Shown piece by piece: positions 13,564 through 21,143 of a DNA stretch of 64,000 bases (its first letter is position 1; every line of letters starts with the position of its first letter). The stretch lies in assembly GCA_009833045.1 (NCBI GenBank), contig WUUP01000001.1:861586-925585 (forward strand), written 5' to 3'. This stretch comes from Saprospirales bacterium GYS_P2D. Its GTDB lineage: Bacteria > Bacteroidota > Bacteroidia > Chitinophagales > Saprospiraceae. The notes beneath the pieces are model-generated. The model saw only the letters and a list, made by a program, of their open reading frames with translations. It was not told the DNA's origin and did no database searches. The position numbers were made by a program, and so were the translations under genes.

Positions 13564-14103
13564 TTATGCCTTCAGTTTATAGATAGCGGGCAGATCCCGG
13601 CCCAACTCATCATAATCTAATCCGTACCCAACGACGAAATCGTTGGGTATTTCTTTGCCTACATAATCGATCGGGATCTCATGCTGGAGTGCATCTGGCT
13701 TGAGGAGTAGGCTGACTACTTTGACAGAGGCAGGACCATGAGACTTTAGCTCAGCTAATGCCTTTGATAGGGTAAATCCCGTATCTACTATATCCTCGAC
13801 GATGAGGAGATCTCGCCCTTCTATATTGGACTTCAGTCCCAATATTTGCTTTATACGGCCAGTAGACTCCGTACCCTCGTATGATGAGTACCGGACAAAC
13901 TCAATCTTCATCGGAAAATCGAAATAACGCACCAAATCCGCCGCAAAAATGAACGACCCATTAAGAATACTCAGTACGATAGGATACTTACCTTTATAAT
14001 CCTTATTGATGGTATCTGCCAGCTCTTTATTGATACTTTCGATTTCCTCCTTGGCTATGAATACCTCAAATTCTTTATCGTGGAGCTTTACTGTTTCGTT
14101 CAT
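13564..14103 (-). CDS. hpt: Hypoxanthine phosphoribosyltransferase
   Basis: Purine salvage enzyme making IMP or GMP from hypoxanthine or guanine plus PRPP. The PRPP-binding signature is at about residues 99-112 (LLIVEDIVDTGFTL). The catalytic-loop neighbourhood is RYSSYEG (about 71-77), and the C-terminal base-binding part has DFVVGYGLDYDELGRDLP. At 179 aa it is full length for bacterial HPRT. It is convergent with the SRPBCC gene (24-bp gap), and its 3' coding end contains a hairpin likely used as that gene's terminator. Confidence 0.95.
   Translation of the reverse strand: MNETVKLHDKEFEVFIAKEEIESINKELADTINKDYKGKYPIVLSILNGSFIFAADLVRYFDFPMKIEFVRYSSYEGTESTGRIKQILGLKSNIEGRDLLIVEDIVDTGFTLSKALAELKSHGPASVKVVSLLLKPDALQHEIPIDYVGKEIPNDFVVGYGLDYDELGRDLPAIYKLKA
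13626..13657 (+). terminator. Candidate plus-strand terminator inside the hpt coding sequence
   Basis: ACCCAACGA (13626-13634) pairs perfectly with TCGTTGGGT (13640-13648) around CGAAA, followed by ATTTCTTT on the plus strand. It lies 87 bp past the SRPBCC stop, where no other terminator is visible, but it is antisense to the hpt 3' coding end. Confidence 0.5.
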
Positions 14104-14125: not shown

Positions 14126-15529
14126 TTACTCAGAATCTCTCTGTAATCCATATTGATCGAGTAAGTAGACCAAACTCGACATTGCTGCAGCACCCAATTT
14201 TAGCTCTCTTTCATTGACAGCCTCGATGTTATCATTCTTAGTATGGTGAAAATCGAAATAGCGCTGAGAGTCAGGACGTAGTCCTGCTAAGAGTCCATTT
14301 TGAGATTTCAATGGATTGATATCTGCTCCAGATCCTCCTTTATTGAGCTGTATACCATAAGGCGCTAATAGTGGCTCCCACTCGGTCACCTGACGGAATA
14401 ATCCAGCAAATACTTCGTCAGTAGCATCAAAGCTGAATGCACGAGGCGAAAATCCGCCTGCATCAGATTCGATCGCTGCGAGGTGAAATTCGTCATTCTC
14501 ATTAGAGGCTGCGGCATAGGCGAGACCCCCACCGAGTCCATTTTCTTCATTCATGAAGAGCACACATCGGATAGTCCTTTTGGGCTGATAGCCCAGTGCC
14601 TGCATCGTCTGTAACACCTGCATAGCATGTACACATCCAGCACCGTCATCATGAGCGCCACCAGCTACATCCCAAGAGTCCATATGACCTCCGACTAAGA
14701 TGATCTCATCAGGATATTCTGATCCTTTGATTTCTGCCACTACATTGTGCGAGAGCTTCTCGTGGGCGACCATCTTACAGTGGGTCTCTATATATACTGA
14801 CACCTTATCTTTTTTGATGAAGTAGCTCAGCTTATCCGCATCCTCTGTGCTGATAGCTACAGCTGGTATCTGCGGGACACCATCCTTGTATCGAGTCACA
14901 CCGGTATGAGGGACATTGTCAGTCAGGGTGGTGAGAGAGCGGACTACAGCTCCTACTGCACCGTACTCAGCAGCTACTGCTGGCCCATTGACCCGCTGAT
15001 CTCCAGCACGACCATAGGCCTGAAAAGTATTGATCAAGGTAGGATCCATAGGTCGATTGTAGAATACTATTTTACCAGCCACTCCTGCACGTCCGAGTTC
15101 TCGGACTTCATCAAGTGACTTTACTTCTATTACTTCAGCTTCTACTCCTATATCTCCAGTCCCGACAGAGTTGCCCAGAGCAAGTGCATTCATATTCATC
15201 TGAGCACCCCCTGGCATATTAGTCACTTTGACTACCTCTCGGCGCCCTCTCACCCAGTAAGGGACTATGCACTCCTGGAGATATACTGTATCAGCTAAAG
15301 AATTCAGCTGCTCCGCTGTATACTTGATAGCTTCTTCTGACTCTGGAGATCCTGCGAGACGCCCTCCGATTTTATTAGATAGATGCGAGAGCCACTGATA
15401 GCAGACTCCCCGCTGTAGGGTGTGATCATGTATCCGCTTAATAAATAAAGCGTCCTCGTCTTGCTGAGCTGACAGATCTACTGACACAAACAAGAGAAGA
15501 AGTAAGGTAGCTAACATTCCTTTTTGCAT
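14126..15529 (-). CDS. Secreted M28 family metallopeptidase (carboxypeptidase Q-like)
   Basis: Zinc exopeptidase of the M28B/plasma glutamate carboxypeptidase type, 467 aa from the chosen start. That start (MQKGMLATLLLLLF, ATG at 15529) gives a clean signal peptide cut near LSAQ. The longer reading frame back to 15616 would overlap the divergent sigma factor gene and is unlikely. Zinc ligands are visible: GGHMDSWD (H, first D nearby), GGAHDDGAG (bridging D), FMNEENG (catalytic E and ligand E), ESDAGG (D) and FDFHHTKND (H). An inserted PA-like domain lies at about residues 100-240. Role: probably degradation of exported peptides. Confidence 0.9.
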   Translation of the reverse strand: MQKGMLATLLLLLFVSVDLSAQQDEDALFIKRIHDHTLQRGVCYQWLSHLSNKIGGRLAGSPESEEAIKYTAEQLNSLADTVYLQECIVPYWVRGRREVVKVTNMPGGAQMNMNALALGNSVGTGDIGVEAEVIEVKSLDEVRELGRAGVAGKIVFYNRPMDPTLINTFQAYGRAGDQRVNGPAVAAEYGAVGAVVRSLTTLTDNVPHTGVTRYKDGVPQIPAVAISTEDADKLSYFIKKDKVSVYIETHCKMVAHEKLSHNVVAEIKGSEYPDEIILVGGHMDSWDVAGGAHDDGAGCVHAMQVLQTMQALGYQPKRTIRCVLFMNEENGLGGGLAYAAASNENDEFHLAAIESDAGGFSPRAFSFDATDEVFAGLFRQVTEWEPLLAPYGIQLNKGGSGADINPLKSQNGLLAGLRPDSQRYFDFHHTKNDNIEAVNERELKLGAAAMSSLVYLLDQYGLQRDSE

Positions 15530-15594
15530 GTATGGAGTTTTATTTATGCGATTGCCACGTAACTTTCTCATCTTTGTGCGTCTAAGAAAGTGAC

Positions 15595-16194
15595 ATGTTA
15601 AAGTTTCTCTTTGCACTCTTGTCCAAAAGTAAGACTAAAACACTGTCCGATGAAGAGATCATAGCCGAATATATACGCACTCAAAACAATTACTACTTTG
15701 AGATACTATATAATCGCTACTCCTCTAAAATCTTCGGAAAGTGTCTCACCTTACTCAAGGATGAATATAAGGCTCAAGATGCTACTCAAGACATCATGAT
15801 GAAAATCCTATTGAACTTGTCCAAGTTCAGTGGGAAATCTAAATTTTCGACTTGGGTGTATTCGATTACTTATAACTTCTGTATTGACGCTATCAGAAAA
15901 CGTAAAAAAGACAAAAGTGTCTTAGTAGACGATATCTCGATAGTGGCCGATGTAGAAGATGAGATAAGCGACAAGTTCATACTCGAGGTAAAGCTCGATC
16001 AACTCAAGGTAATACTTGACGAGATACCGATGGCTGATAAGACTGTGCTTCTCATGAAGTATATGGACGGTATGTCTATCAGAGACATCTCAGAGGTAGT
16101 CGGAAAATCTGAAAGTGCTATCAAAATGAAGATCAAAAGAGCGAAAGAGAAATTTGTAAAAACTCATGACAATCACTTTAAAAATGCGGTCTAA
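15595..16194 (+). CDS. ECF-type (group IV) RNA polymerase sigma factor
   Basis: A 199-aa sigma-70 family protein with only regions 2 and 4. Region 2 (about 22-100) has EILYNRYSSKIFGKC and AQDATQDIMMKI, then FSTWVYSITYNFCIDAIRK, the -10 recognition helix. Region 4 (about 140-190) has the HTH MSIRDISEVVGKSESAIKMKIKRAK. Its stop codon overlaps the start of the next gene (TAATG), suggesting translational coupling. No classical membrane anti-sigma is next to it; the coupled 75-aa protein takes that place. The downstream MscS-like and DUF3078 genes could be its regulon (inference). Confidence 0.92.
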   Translation: MLKFLFALLSKSKTKTLSDEEIIAEYIRTQNNYYFEILYNRYSSKIFGKCLTLLKDEYKAQDATQDIMMKILLNLSKFSGKSKFSTWVYSITYNFCIDAIRKRKKDKSVLVDDISIVADVEDEISDKFILEVKLDQLKVILDEIPMADKTVLLMKYMDGMSIRDISEVVGKSESAIKMKIKRAKEKFVKTHDNHFKNAV

Positions 16195-16421
16195 TGGCTG
16201 AAAACACTAAAAATTCATTTGAACTCCTAAAGGAAGAAAATGAAAATAAATTTGATAATCATAAGAAAAAGATAAAGGAGAATATCGACGGTCGTCGTGA
16301 CATATGGTCTTTCTTTGGCGAGATCATAGAGCTCTATATCCCTAAGATTTTTGGAGCGCTACTCGGAGGAGCTATGACAGGATCGAGTTCAGACAATAAG
16401 ATATTGGACGACGATAAGTAA
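16194..16421 (+). CDS. Small protein coupled to the ECF sigma factor, 75 aa, unknown
   Basis: I do not recognise a family. The ATG uses the last A of the sigma factor stop (TAATG), so translation is coupled. The N-terminal half is highly charged (runs of E, K and N; KEENENKFDNHKKKIKENIDGRRD). The C-terminal half has a weakly hydrophobic, Gly-rich segment (IIELYIPKIFGALLGGAMTG) and an acidic tail. A single amphipathic or membrane-touching helix would suit a small anti-sigma or membrane sensor, but this is inference from position only. There is no zinc-finger motif and no standard anti-sigma domain. Confidence 0.7.
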   Translation: MAENTKNSFELLKEENENKFDNHKKKIKENIDGRRDIWSFFGEIIELYIPKIFGALLGGAMTGSSSDNKILDDDK

Positions 16422-16471
16422 ACCCCTTTATTAAAATTCTATAAAAGCGTTAACTGAAAAAAATCACATAC

Positions 16472-17293
16472 ATGTTATTTATAGATCTCAGCAGCATGAC
16501 GGGTACGCTTACCCAATTAATCTCTCAGGTAGTCTCCACTGTGCCTAAAATCGCAGGAGCTATTATCATTCTATTAGTCGGAATGCTCATCAGCAAAATG
16601 GTGAGTAAGGCCGTAATCAAGCTCCTCGAAAAAATAAACATCGATAAAATCGGCGAAAAGCTGAATGAGATCGATATCGTCGAAAAATCAAATATCAAAG
16701 TCAAACTCAGCACGATATTTGGCAAGATCATTTACTATTTCTTGTTGGTCATATTTATGGCAGCGGCTGCAGATGTACTACAGATGCCAGCCATCTCTAA
16801 TCTGATAGCAGATTTATTTAACTTGATTCCAAAATTAGTAGTAGGCTTTATCATTCTGATTTTTGGTATCATCTTATCGGATGGCATCAAGAATCTCGTA
16901 TCGACTACCCTCACCTCTCTGGGCATTTCTTCTGCCAAGATGATTGCTAATTTTTTGTTCTATTTCCTTTTTATCAATGTCGTCATAGTGGCTATCGCTC
17001 AGGCCGATATCAATACTGACTTTCTCGAGCAAAATATATCTATTATCATAGCTGGAGCTGTATTGGCATTTTCAATAGGATATGGACTGGCATCGAAGGA
17101 TAGTGTCGGTAATTTCTTAGCATCATTTTACACTAAGAACAAAATAGAAATCGGTGACGTCATCTCTATCGACGAGCACAAAGGCGAAATCATAAATATC
17201 GATAATAATTCAGTTACTATTGAGACGGATGACCGTCAGATAGTATATCCCTTGAATCATTTTATGAAAGAAAAATTTTCAATTCATAAATAA
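16472..17293 (+). CDS. CmpX-like mechanosensitive channel relative (conserved TM helix family)
   Basis: A 273-aa membrane protein with paired Gly- and Ile-rich helices of the conserved TM helix type (PF05552-like): AGAIIILLVGMLISKMVSKAV (about 28-48) and its echo VVGFIILIFGIILSDGIKNLV (about 120-140). Further helices follow, then an MscS-type pore helix (IIIAGAVLAFSIGYGLASKDSVGNFLASF, about 185-213) and a short beta domain (IEIGDVISIDEHKGEI). It lacks the MscS C-terminal cage. Pseudomonas CmpX is a relative linked to envelope stress and the SigX ECF factor, which fits the sigma gene upstream (established link there, inferred here). Confidence 0.85.
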   Translation: MLFIDLSSMTGTLTQLISQVVSTVPKIAGAIIILLVGMLISKMVSKAVIKLLEKINIDKIGEKLNEIDIVEKSNIKVKLSTIFGKIIYYFLLVIFMAAAADVLQMPAISNLIADLFNLIPKLVVGFIILIFGIILSDGIKNLVSTTLTSLGISSAKMIANFLFYFLFINVVIVAIAQADINTDFLEQNISIIIAGAVLAFSIGYGLASKDSVGNFLASFYTKNKIEIGDVISIDEHKGEIINIDNNSVTIETDDRQIVYPLNHFMKEKFSIHK

Positions 17294-17328
17294 TCAAATC
17301 TTAAAATTTAGATAATTAAACATTTATT

Positions 17329-18237
17329 ATGAAACAGATTTTTACAATTTGTATGCTATTCGTATGCGCATTCGCATCAGCTCAGTCTATGGCAGAACTC
17401 AAAGAAATGAAAGCCGAAAAAGAAGCGATGCTCGCAGAAAAGCAGGCTGAAGTAGATGCTATTGCTGGTGAGGTAGCAGCATTGAGCAGCGACATCGAGA
17501 AAATGTCTGGCTGGATCAAAGGTTACAATGGTCTTGTAGGTTTTGACTTCAATAAGAGTAACAACTGGGTAAGCAATCCAAATCCAGATGCATCGTCTTC
17601 TTCACTTAACATCACATTAAACGGATTCGCTAATAAAATCACAGATGACTACTTCTGGAGAAACAAAGGTGTACTCTCTAAAGCATGGACAGACATCGAC
17701 CTTAGCGATGCTGACAACACTACAGAAGATGATGGTCTTTTTGACAATGGTACGGTAGACATCCTCAACCTTAGCTCACTATATGGTCGCTCTATTAGTG
17801 ATCAGTTTGCGCTTTCTGGTCTTGGAGAATTAAACTCTTCATTAGGAAATTTCCTAAACCCTGGGACTCTTGATCTCGGTGTTGGTGTGACGTGGACTCC
17901 ACCTGTCAATGACTTAGTAGTAGTGATTCACCCATTAAACTACCACTTCGCATTTTCTGGCATCGATGGTTTAGAATCTACAGGAGCACTTGGCGCTAAG
18001 CTTAGAGCTGACTTCAATCGTACATTTGGTAAAGTAGGATATACTTCTACTTTGACGTCTTTCATCCCTTACCAAGAGAAAGATCCTACATTATTCGAGT
18101 ATACTTGGATTAACTCTTTAGCATTCAATGTATGGAATGGTATCGGTGTAGGTGTTTCTTTCGGACTTAGAAATGCAGAATTCGAGTTTGCTGATACTCA
18201 GAGTTTCTACTCTGTAGGATTGTCATACTCACTCTAA
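17329..18237 (+). CDS. DUF3078-like outer-membrane beta-barrel protein
   Basis: A 302-aa exported protein: signal peptide cut after ASAQ (about residue 19), then a coiled-coil segment (AELKEMKAEKEAMLAEKQAEVDAI in outline, about 20-60), then a barrel-like part with alternating aromatic strands ending in SVGLSYSL, a C-terminal aromatic/Leu motif. The GFDFNKSNNWVSN region matches the DUF3078 pattern. Codons are dominated by GGT, GCT, TCT and AAC unlike neighbours, suggesting strong expression. The N-terminal coiled coil is an unusual addition and could span the periplasm. Last gene of the sigma factor unit. Confidence 0.75.
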   Translation: MKQIFTICMLFVCAFASAQSMAELKEMKAEKEAMLAEKQAEVDAIAGEVAALSSDIEKMSGWIKGYNGLVGFDFNKSNNWVSNPNPDASSSSLNITLNGFANKITDDYFWRNKGVLSKAWTDIDLSDADNTTEDDGLFDNGTVDILNLSSLYGRSISDQFALSGLGELNSSLGNFLNPGTLDLGVGVTWTPPVNDLVVVIHPLNYHFAFSGIDGLESTGALGAKLRADFNRTFGKVGYTSTLTSFIPYQEKDPTLFEYTWINSLAFNVWNGIGVGVSFGLRNAEFEFADTQSFYSVGLSYSL

Positions 18238-18314
18238 ATAATATAGAATAATTTGTCTATGAATATCGGAGGGTGTACCTTCGTATGACCCGATTTTATT
18301 CTAGTTGATATCAG

Positions 18315-18352
18315 AGCTCATCCCGAGTAATTGGGATGGGCTTTCTTTTTTA
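18315..18352 (+). terminator. Terminator after the sigma/channel/barrel unit
   Basis: AGCTCATCCC and GGGATGGGCT form a 10-bp stem (one G-T pair) with an 8-nt loop, followed by TTCTTTTTT. It closes the four-gene unit before polA. Confidence 0.85.
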
Positions 18353-18377: not shown

Positions 18378-21143
18378 ATGTCAGAAAAGAAACTGTTTCT
18401 CATTGATGGTCATGCCCTGACGTATCGATCTCACTACGCATTTATAAATCGTCCACTGATCAACTCTAAGGGTATCAATACTTCGGCGATAACGGGATTC
18501 GTCCGGACGATGTGGGACATGATACGTAATCAAAAGCCATCACATCTCGCAGTAGCTTTTGATCCCTCAGGACCCACATTCAGACATGAGTGGTATGAGC
18601 CTTACAAGGCTAATCGTGATGCTCAGCCAGAGGACATAGGCATTGCTCTACCATATATCAAGGATATTATTGAGGCTTTCAACATACCGATGATCTGTGT
18701 GGATAATTATGAGGCTGATGATGTCATAGGCACCCTGGCTAAGCAAGCAGAGAAGGAGGGTTTTGACGTCTATATGGTCACTCCTGATAAGGACTATGCT
18801 CAGCTCGTATCTGAGCACATCTATATGTACAAGCCATCTCGTATGGGCAATGGAATCGATATACTCGGCGTACCAGAGGTATTAGCTAAGTGGGATATCG
18901 ATCATCCTGAGCAAGTCATCGATATACTCGGAATGCAGGGAGATAGCGTCGATAATATCCCAGGCATACCAGGTGTCGGGGCGAAGACTGCAGTTAAGCT
19001 TCTCAAACAATTTGGCACATTAGAAAATCTACTCGAAAACACCGATCAACTAAAGGGGAAACAGAAAGAAAAAGTAGAGCAATTCGCTGAGCAGGGGCGA
19101 CTCTCAAAAAGACTCGCTACCATCAAGCTGGATGTACCTATCCAGTTTGATGCAAAGAAATATGAAGTCGAGGGATTTGACAGGGACAAGCTCAAAGAGC
19201 TATTTCAAGAGTTAGAATTTAGATCTCTGGCACAAAGTATCCTGGGTGAGGGCTCCAAAGGTGAGCAGGCCAGCCTCTTCTCATCTAATACCCTGGTAGA
19301 AAAACCCAAAGAAGATCTCAATATCGGCAAGAACACCCTCGAGACGACCCAGCACAACTATATACTCGTAGATACTGAGCAAAAAATTCAGGATCTCGTT
19401 AAGAAACTGAATGAGCAAGAGGCATACTGTTTTGATACAGAGACAACAGGGCTGGATGCTCACAATGTCGAGATCGTAGGTATCGCTTTCTCATGGAAAA
19501 AAGGTGAAGGCTACTACGTGCCGATCGATGAAGATCAAGAAAAAGCAAAATTACAACTCAGTCACTTCAAGCAAGTACTCGAATCTGACAAGCTAAAAAT
19601 CGGGCAAAACCTGAAGTATGATATCAATGTACTCAAGTGGTACGACATACAGGTAGCGCAACCCTATTTTGATACGATGATCGCTCACTATCTACTTGAG
19701 CCTGACCTGAGACATAAGCTCGACTATCTCTCTGAGAGCTATCTGTCCTACAAGATGGTCCCTATCGAAAAACTCATCGGTAAAAAAGGGCCTAAACAAA
19801 AATCAATGCGGACTGTAGAGATAGAAGAGCTCTGCGACTATGCTGTAGAAGATGCCGACATCACCCTACAGCTCAGAGACGAGCTGAGTCCAAAACTCGA
19901 AGAAGAAAAGCTAACAGAGCTATTCAATACTATAGAAATGCCGCTCGTAGAAGTACTCAGCAATATCGAGTATGAAGGAGTAAGGATAGACAAGGGATTC
20001 TTAGAAAATTACTCTAATGATTTGCAAGGACTCATCCTCAATAAGCGGGATGATATCTATGAAAAGGCTGGTATGGAGTTTAATATAGCCAGTCCAAAGC
20101 AAGTCGGAGAGGTGCTCTTTGACCATATGAAAATCCCATATAGATGGAGAAAAACTAAGACTGGCCAATACTCGACAGATGTCGCTAAACTGGATGAACT
20201 ATCCGTAGATAATGAAATCATCAGAGACATACTCGAGTACCGTATGTATACTAAGCTCAAGTCTACCTACGTCGATGCCCTGCCGCAGCTGATCAATCCT
20301 AAAACAAATCGCATCCATAGCTCATTTAACCAAGCTCGTGCTGCGACAGGACGACTGAGCTCCGAGAGCCCTAACCTCCAGAACATTCCGATCAAAAACG
20401 AAGCTGGCCGAGAAATCAGAAAGGCATTCATCCCTCGAGATGAAGACCATATCCTGATGGCTGCCGACTACTCTCAGATAGAGTTACGCCTGATCGCAGA
20501 GATCAGTGGTGAGGAGAATATGCTATCAGCCTTTGCTAAAGGCCAAGATATTCATGCTGCTACCGCCGCTGGCGTATATGGTGTAGATATCAATGAAGTA
20601 ACTTCTGACCAGCGTAGAAATGCAAAAACTGTCAACTTCAGTATCATATACGGTGCTGGATCGACTAATCTCTCCCAACAACTCGGTATCAAAAGAGCTG
20701 AAGCGAAGGAGCTCATCGATAGCTACTTCCAGCAATACCAAGGTCTTAAGAAATATATGGACGATACAGTGGCTTTCGCCAGAAAAAAAGGCTATGTGAT
20801 GACTCTCGCTGGTCGCAAAAGGCATCTGCGTGATATCAACTCTCGCAACTCGCTAGCACGGAGTAATGCAGAGCGCATGGCGATCAATACTCCTATACAA
20901 GGTACAGCAGCAGATCTCATCAAAATCGCCATGATCAATATCGATCGGGAGATGAAGGCTAAAAACTATAGATCAAAAATGATCATGCAGGTACATGACG
21001 AATTAGTGTTTGATGTATATCGACCAGAACTGGAAGAAATGAAGACCATGGTAGAAGAGCTCATGAAAACCGCCATGCCATCACTGAAAGTGCCTATAAA
21101 AGTAGAAGCGGGAGTAGGAAAAAATTGGCTCGAAGCCCATTAA
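18378..21143 (+). CDS. polA: DNA polymerase I
   Basis: Repair and Okazaki-fragment maturation polymerase, 921 aa. Three domains are present. The 5' nuclease (about 1-290) has the DGHALTYRSHYAF start and acidic clusters such as NYEADDVIGT and TPDKDYAQLV. The 3'-5' exonuclease (about 325-500) has an intact DTETTG and YAVEDADITL, so proofreading is probably active, unlike many Gram-positive Pol I. The polymerase domain has motif A DYSQIELR (about 696), motif B RRNAKTVNFSIIYG (about 744) and motif C VHDELVF (about 871). Start ATG follows the preceding terminator by 25 bp. Complete and ordinary. Confidence 0.97.
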   Translation: MSEKKLFLIDGHALTYRSHYAFINRPLINSKGINTSAITGFVRTMWDMIRNQKPSHLAVAFDPSGPTFRHEWYEPYKANRDAQPEDIGIALPYIKDIIEAFNIPMICVDNYEADDVIGTLAKQAEKEGFDVYMVTPDKDYAQLVSEHIYMYKPSRMGNGIDILGVPEVLAKWDIDHPEQVIDILGMQGDSVDNIPGIPGVGAKTAVKLLKQFGTLENLLENTDQLKGKQKEKVEQFAEQGRLSKRLATIKLDVPIQFDAKKYEVEGFDRDKLKELFQELEFRSLAQSILGEGSKGEQASLFSSNTLVEKPKEDLNIGKNTLETTQHNYILVDTEQKIQDLVKKLNEQEAYCFDTETTGLDAHNVEIVGIAFSWKKGEGYYVPIDEDQEKAKLQLSHFKQVLESDKLKIGQNLKYDINVLKWYDIQVAQPYFDTMIAHYLLEPDLRHKLDYLSESYLSYKMVPIEKLIGKKGPKQKSMRTVEIEELCDYAVEDADITLQLRDELSPKLEEEKLTELFNTIEMPLVEVLSNIEYEGVRIDKGFLENYSNDLQGLILNKRDDIYEKAGMEFNIASPKQVGEVLFDHMKIPYRWRKTKTGQYSTDVAKLDELSVDNEIIRDILEYRMYTKLKSTYVDALPQLINPKTNRIHSSFNQARAATGRLSSESPNLQNIPIKNEAGREIRKAFIPRDEDHILMAADYSQIELRLIAEISGEENMLSAFAKGQDIHAATAAGVYGVDINEVTSDQRRNAKTVNFSIIYGAGSTNLSQQLGIKRAEAKELIDSYFQQYQGLKKYMDDTVAFARKKGYVMTLAGRKRHLRDINSRNSLARSNAERMAINTPIQGTAADLIKIAMINIDREMKAKNYRSKMIMQVHDELVFDVYRPELEEMKTMVEELMKTAMPSLKVPIKVEAGVGKNWLEAH

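Follow-up and report, generated by a model that had tools for sequence, protein, structure and literature searches.

Organization of the locus

The window, a 64,000-nucleotide stretch of DNA from Saprospirales bacterium GYS_P2D, encloses a cassette of four genes with a candidate promoter and a terminator-like hairpin at its ends. Its features are the following:

15559-15584 (genome C11:877144), + strand: candidate ECF-type promoter preceding the sigma gene, GTAACTTT-N12-CGTCTA
15595-16194, + strand: SigX-like ECF sigma factor gene (199 residues; Sigma70_r2/r4_2)
16194-16421, + strand: small protein gene (75 residues; without Pfam or NCBIfam match)
16472-17293, + strand: gene for a CmpX-like small MscS-type channel (273 residues; PF05552 and PF00924, profile matches in the PDB)
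17329-18237, + strand: gene for a DUF3078-type outer-membrane protein, probably a barrel (302 residues; PF11276)
18313-18344, + strand: terminator-like hairpin with a T run (hairpin scan)

The ORF listing confirms the positions and strand of the four genes described in an earlier note on this DNA, and the TAATG overlap between the sigma stop codon and the start of the small gene is present at positions 16192-16196. A terminator had also been proposed to close the unit, and the hairpin at 18313-18344 is the sole terminator-like one between positions 14000 and 20000; since shuffled sequences average 3.6 in that interval, the scan by itself does not prove a terminator. The cassette is flanked on one side by a divergent gene for an M28 peptidase (14126-15616, - strand), the true start of which is probably further in, because the listed GTG start (15616) overlaps the start of the sigma gene. 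On the other side lies a gene identified by eye as that of DNA polymerase I (polA; 18378-21143, + strand), which is also found downstream of the cassette in three other loci (L100, L131 and L138).

Linkage and distribution in Bacteroidota

Using a profile built from 19 sigma factors, we searched species genomes and kept the 80 best-scoring named loci, with the sigma factor as the sole criterion of selection. A small ORF occupies the slot after the sigma gene in all 80 and is found nowhere else in their DNA; in 59 of these 80 Saprospiraceae loci it starts at most 30 nt from the end of the sigma gene or overlaps it. CmpX follows the small gene in 79/79 loci in which the contig continues (in L070 the contig ends first). 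A DUF3078 outer-membrane gene comes after cmpX in 68 of 75 loci, with seven true absences, a count that leaves out L113, L116, L118 and L123, whose contigs end before the gene could be judged. The gene order is kept in relatives within Saprospiraceae, with no case of a missing or unlinked small gene among these 80 loci, and the earlier view of the four genes as one co-inherited unit agrees with these proportions. A chance neighbourhood was rejected in view of the linkage of the small ORF in 80/80 loci. We also rejected the outer-membrane gene as a core member, given its 68/75 occurrence in the family and the lack of a DUF3078-type gene in most of the loci examined outside it.

The converse search, with the 75-residue protein alone as query, gave matches in 17 of 60 related genomes, and in all 17 loci thus fetched the small gene is preceded by a sigma gene and followed by CmpX, including one (L013) whose contig holds only the end of the sigma gene. 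Within the family, a profile of the small protein (A1) matches 105 of 150 genomes; in the phylum at large it matches 6 of 296, one of them weakly. The CmpX profile matches 31 of 296 phylum genomes. CmpX scores at least 200 bits in 17 places, and the sigma gene, small ORF and CmpX occur in order in the 16 that were examined (one, G030:C8, yielded no locus). Outside the family, all ten loci with CmpX at or above 200 bits keep the sigma gene, an ORF of 59-78 residues and CmpX, two of them coming from another class (L144 and L147). Another 16 places gave lower CmpX scores, of 125-143 bits; 15 of them were examined (G063 yielded no locus), and none of the 15 has either a sigma gene or a small ORF.

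Absence is shared as well. We searched 20 of the 45 family genomes without A1 match, and in 16 of them CmpX (1e-40) is absent too. The other four have five CmpX loci, all of which keep the trio, with small ORFs that are found by a wider profile. In one locus (L173:764-1391), two small-family ORFs of 85 and 103 residues stand in tandem between the sigma gene and CmpX. Second, diverged sigma-small-CmpX cassettes were identified beside the usual one in two genomes (L053 in G008 and L177 in G362).

These computations show that, across Bacteroidota, the genes for an ECF sigma factor, a small family-specific protein and a CmpX/MscS-like channel are passed on together as a unit. One might regard the cassette as an ancient housekeeping operon whose independent members stay together by neutral inheritance, and the neighbouring polA gene, which is kept downstream in a few loci, indicates that some of the synteny is indeed plain inheritance. 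The trio itself, however, has been retained in two classes although its surroundings differ, recurs as second copies within single genomes (L053 and L177) and is lost jointly in 16/20 genomes, which makes this explanation very improbable.

The sigma factor and its candidate promoter

The best NCBIfam model for the sigma factor is that of Pseudomonas SigX (NF007222, ECF102), although its score of about 104 bits is under the curated cut-off of 194 bits. It ranks first among the 27 matches to this model in its own genome, with 103.5 bits versus 72.8 for the next one, and its nearest named match is 84% identical, which makes a Saprospiraceae bacterium the most probable host. We built a maximum-likelihood tree with the window sigma, 20 of the 80 family sigmas (every fourth one), 13 others, and 19 other ECFs of the window's own genome as outgroup. 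The 34 cassette sigmas form one clade (100/98 branch support), with those of the second copies L053 and L177 branching near its base; because the outgroup consists of long branches from a single genome and the sequences entered the set through their similarity, the tree indicates a coherent group rather than its place among all ECF groups.

The sequence GTAACTTT-N12-CGTCTA upstream of the sigma gene has the typical form of an ECF promoter; in Flavobacterium psychrophilum, too, a CGT box has been interpreted as an ECF -10 element (PMC9723704). The strict motif is present in 20 of 80 upstream regions of sigma genes, whereas 50 shuffle sets contained no instance of it. CGTC alone is present in 76 of the 80 regions, compared with 24.8 on average after shuffling. 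With the looser pattern GTDWCTT-N10-15-CGTC, searched up to 200 nt upstream, matches were obtained ahead of 41/80 sigma genes, 0/80 small genes, 2/79 cmpX genes and 1/68 outer-membrane protein genes. In the two loci from another class (L144 and L147), the motif ahead of the sigma gene takes the form GTGACTTTT...CGTC; it was not found ahead of the sigma gene in the cassettes L143, L146 and L148-L151 from outside the family. As the motif precedes the sigma gene and only rarely the other three, the sigma factor likely autoregulates its own operon.

A scan of the window's own genome with the strict motif gave four matches, as many as the reversed control pattern, and the idea of a large regulon under this promoter led nowhere. 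Three of the four lie within ORFs, that at 15559-15584 being the sole one outside, and no wider regulon is therefore seen. The earlier note, which did not itself report the promoter, suggested a search for a shared motif ahead of 15595 and of other regulon genes; this conserved ECF-type element came to light ahead of the sigma gene, and the strict motif revealed no wider set of target genes in this genome. The sole other genome match to the looser motif, GTGTCTTT-N13-CGTCTA (L172, C21:569180-569206, outside the window), is located approximately 60 nt upstream of another ECF sigma gene (C21:568600-569121). Its location suggests that the two sigma factors may regulate each other or recognize the same type of promoter.

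The small protein

The 75-residue protein has no match in Pfam or NCBIfam, and nine small proteins from other families gave no Pfam family at E < 0.1. It harbours a conserved N..F near its start and a conserved E-L-Y-x-P-K in its second half. The small ORFs from outside the family are divergent, with the motifs N-P-F-K and P-x-x-L-K, and a single one (L144) reaches E < 0.001 with the family profile. Nevertheless, a comparison of the family and outside-family profiles with hhalign gave a probability of 82 and an E value of 1e-5 over 52 columns, versus a probability of 1 for the control pairing of small and channel profiles; judged by these profiles, the small proteins of Saprospiraceae and of other families are homologous. 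An alignment (A5) comprises 9 of the 10 small proteins from other families and 62 of the family's 80; 67 of the latter scored above 40 bits, and L072, L102, L103, L107 and L116 were excluded for odd starts or as near-copies.

AlphaFold2 predicts a single helix for the protein alone (residues 8-61, mean pLDDT 74). The second half forms an amphipathic stretch that stays mostly under the threshold for a transmembrane segment, with a median KD19 of 1.33 across 72 members, 10 of which exceed 1.6. Neither a recognizable anti-sigma domain nor a clear transmembrane segment was found in Pfam, NCBIfam or hydropathy analyses, and a PDB search with the small-protein profile returned no match. A query with an approximate sequence of Pseudomonas CfrX gave no match in viral contigs and plasmids.

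Classical membrane-bound anti-sigma factors are exemplified by the FecI/FecR-type systems. The small gene resembles them in being the second gene of the operon, in the anti-sigma place, but its product differs in its length of 75 residues, its single predicted helix, its lack of a clear transmembrane segment by hydropathy and its lack of a Pfam domain. The anti-sigma position assigned to it earlier is borne out by its slot after the sigma gene in 80/80 loci. Structure prediction gave no docking signal with the sigma factor: the single-chain read-through of the L059 sigma and small proteins was modelled with a mean pLDDT of 83 and a pTM of 0.43 (19 paired and 41 unpaired rows), and its small part is no better defined than alone. 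The result leans negative and lends no support to a stable complex of the two proteins, although a single-chain surrogate with 19 paired rows is a weak test in either direction. We consider the small protein, by analogy, as a candidate sigma regulator in the role of CfrX.

Alternatively, it might assist CmpX, as an accessory subunit or a partner in gating, and make no contact with the sigma factor, the latter being subject to transcriptional autoregulation and other inputs, with the operon as an output. The amphipathic, hydrophobic second half with its conserved E-L-Y-x-P-K, the absence of docking onto the sigma in the AlphaFold2 read-through and the constant location of the small gene before cmpX are consistent with such a role, and ECF sigma factors devoid of anti-sigma factors are known (PMC8999054). 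Conversely, the small gene lies within 30 nt of the sigma gene or overlaps it in 59/80 Saprospiraceae loci, in the position of an anti-sigma gene, and CfrX is named as a candidate regulator in Pseudomonas (PMC7641640). We thus deem the accessory-subunit role rather unlikely.

The channel, the outer-membrane protein and other partners

The CmpX-like protein resembles the MscS family in having transmembrane helices and a beta domain. It contains MS_channel_1st_1 (PF05552) in two stretches and the MS_channel_2nd beta domain (PF00924, 29.2 bits for a cut-off of 20.2), and all matches of the CmpX profile in the PDB are MscS-family channels. Unlike full MscS, it ends after the beta domain, with no match to the C-terminal MS_channel_3rd domain (PF21082).

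The outer-membrane protein matches DUF3078 (PF11276) with 27.4 bits for a gathering cut-off of 25, while the DUF3078 members of L142, L143 and L145 score 77-107 bits. It has a start that resembles a signal peptide and an N-terminal coiled coil, both recognized by eye. OprF of Pseudomonas is an OmpA-type protein; the protein of the cassette has no OmpA match, its sole match being DUF3078. The gene is duplicated in tandem after cmpX in two loci (L063:7692-9902 and L067:4048-6113).

Other partners appear outside the family. Genes for a DUF3078 outer-membrane protein and MscL extend the cassette in L142:167-1465 and L143:2342-3696; in L145 it is followed by a full MscS, with MS_channel_3rd, and DUF3078, and in L144 by a bactofilin and a coiled-coil protein. 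In the locus DNA of L146-L151, no DUF3078, MscL, MscS or bactofilin was found right after CmpX, and L149 has a DUF2807 protein. Altogether, profile searches of the locus DNA found no DUF3078-type gene in 7 of the 10 outside-family loci (L144 and L146-L151). On plasmids, we identified a Pseudoalteromonas CmpX relative with no adjoining sigma or small cassette gene, and a Spirosoma ECF factor without the cassette; viral contigs yielded one distant sigma factor only.

The MscL, MscS, bactofilin and DUF3078 partners are related to the envelope or to osmotic conditions, which backs the theme of tension and envelope state put forward in the earlier note rather than any mechanism. The idea that the barrel is an output of the system is consistent with its place in the operon in 68/75 loci, but it is missing from the other seven.

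The same partners fit another scenario, in which the small protein would be a soluble anti-sigma factor or co-activator with a signal of its own, and CmpX and the outer-membrane protein would be protective members of the regulon rather than sensors. Regulons are often co-transcribed with their sigma factors, and the downstream genes that replace one another, for MscL, MscS and bactofilin, look like outputs. In addition, cmpX overexpression left sigX and cfrX expression unchanged in Pseudomonas (PMC10965496). However, CmpX is kept as strictly as the small protein (79/79), whereas the outer-membrane protein, an apparent output, varies (68/75), making CmpX look like part of the core. This scenario therefore appears unlikely.

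Comparison with the Pseudomonas SigX module

Pseudomonas aeruginosa harbours a cmaX-cfrX-cmpX operon upstream of sigX, SigX drives cfrX-cmpX transcription, and CfrX (84 residues) is a candidate SigX regulator (PMC7641640). The same source reports that sigX expression is raised by valinomycin, which alters the membrane, and that SigX also responds to cold shock. SigX contributes to the transcription of both oprF and sigX (PMC3832394). A review assigns SigX to ECF102 and presents a mechanosensing complex of CfrX, OprF and CmpX as a proposal (PMC8999054), against which stands the lack of effect of cmpX overexpression on sigX and cfrX (PMC10965496).

The cassette described here shares the four roles of that module, namely an ECF sigma factor, a small protein, an MscS-like CmpX and an outer-membrane protein. 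The parallel with SigX and CmpX drawn from the window alone is sustained by the proximity of the sigma factor to the SigX model and by its linkage with an MscS-type cmpX in 79/79 loci. Differences include the gene order, which is sigma-small-cmpX-omp rather than cmaX-cfrX-cmpX upstream of sigX, and the presence of DUF3078 instead of OprF. The small protein is likened to CfrX by its role.

The earlier note knew of no description of the four-gene set, but a SigX-CfrX-CmpX-OprF complex was already proposed for P. aeruginosa (PMC8999054, PMC7641640). Among the papers listed by our literature searches, none connects Saprospir* with SigX, with CmpX or with mechanosensitive channels, and none connects DUF3078 with such a cassette; an earlier mention of either in the 2021 ECF classification is possible. 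What is new here is the Bacteroidota version, together with a promoter and a family of small proteins that has no name as yet, the model itself being nearly the published Pseudomonas proposal.

Proposed mechanism and implications

Our preferred reading, to which we give a probability of about 50%, is that the cassette is a SigX-type response unit for envelope state or membrane tension, working in the manner proposed for SigX, CfrX, CmpX and OprF of Pseudomonas. The sigma factor would transcribe its own operon from the promoter at 15559-15584, and the small protein, with its long and partly amphipathic helix, would keep the sigma factor inactive at the inner membrane face near CmpX. CmpX would sense tension or a change of membrane state and thereby free the sigma factor, leading to the production of more channel and more outer-membrane protein. 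Points against this reading are the missing docking signal, the lack of an anti-sigma domain or clear transmembrane segment in the small protein, the unaltered sigX and cfrX expression upon cmpX overexpression in Pseudomonas (PMC10965496), the absence of a wider regulon in the strict motif scan and the cassettes outside the family in which the motif was not found. The mechanism outlined in the earlier note corresponds to a proposal already known, encountered here in another phylum with a more compact operon and a different outer-membrane protein; its transfer is fair but unproved.

A bolder proposal, which we find doubtful though conceivable, is that the small protein is the first member of a family, present throughout Bacteroidota, of very short sigma regulators without a transmembrane segment, which relay membrane tension from an MscS-like channel directly to the sigma factor. 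If true, together with Pseudomonas SigX it would point to a single ancient mechanism shared by two or more phyla.

How CfrX and CmpX take part in the switching of Pseudomonas SigX is itself at the stage of a proposal (PMC7641640, PMC8999054). As the small protein always accompanies the sigma factor and the channel in the loci examined, the compact single-operon cassette may be a cleaner system in which to test the control of transcription by a mechanosensitive channel, and it singles out a candidate promoter as well as genes worth studying in many Bacteroidota genomes.
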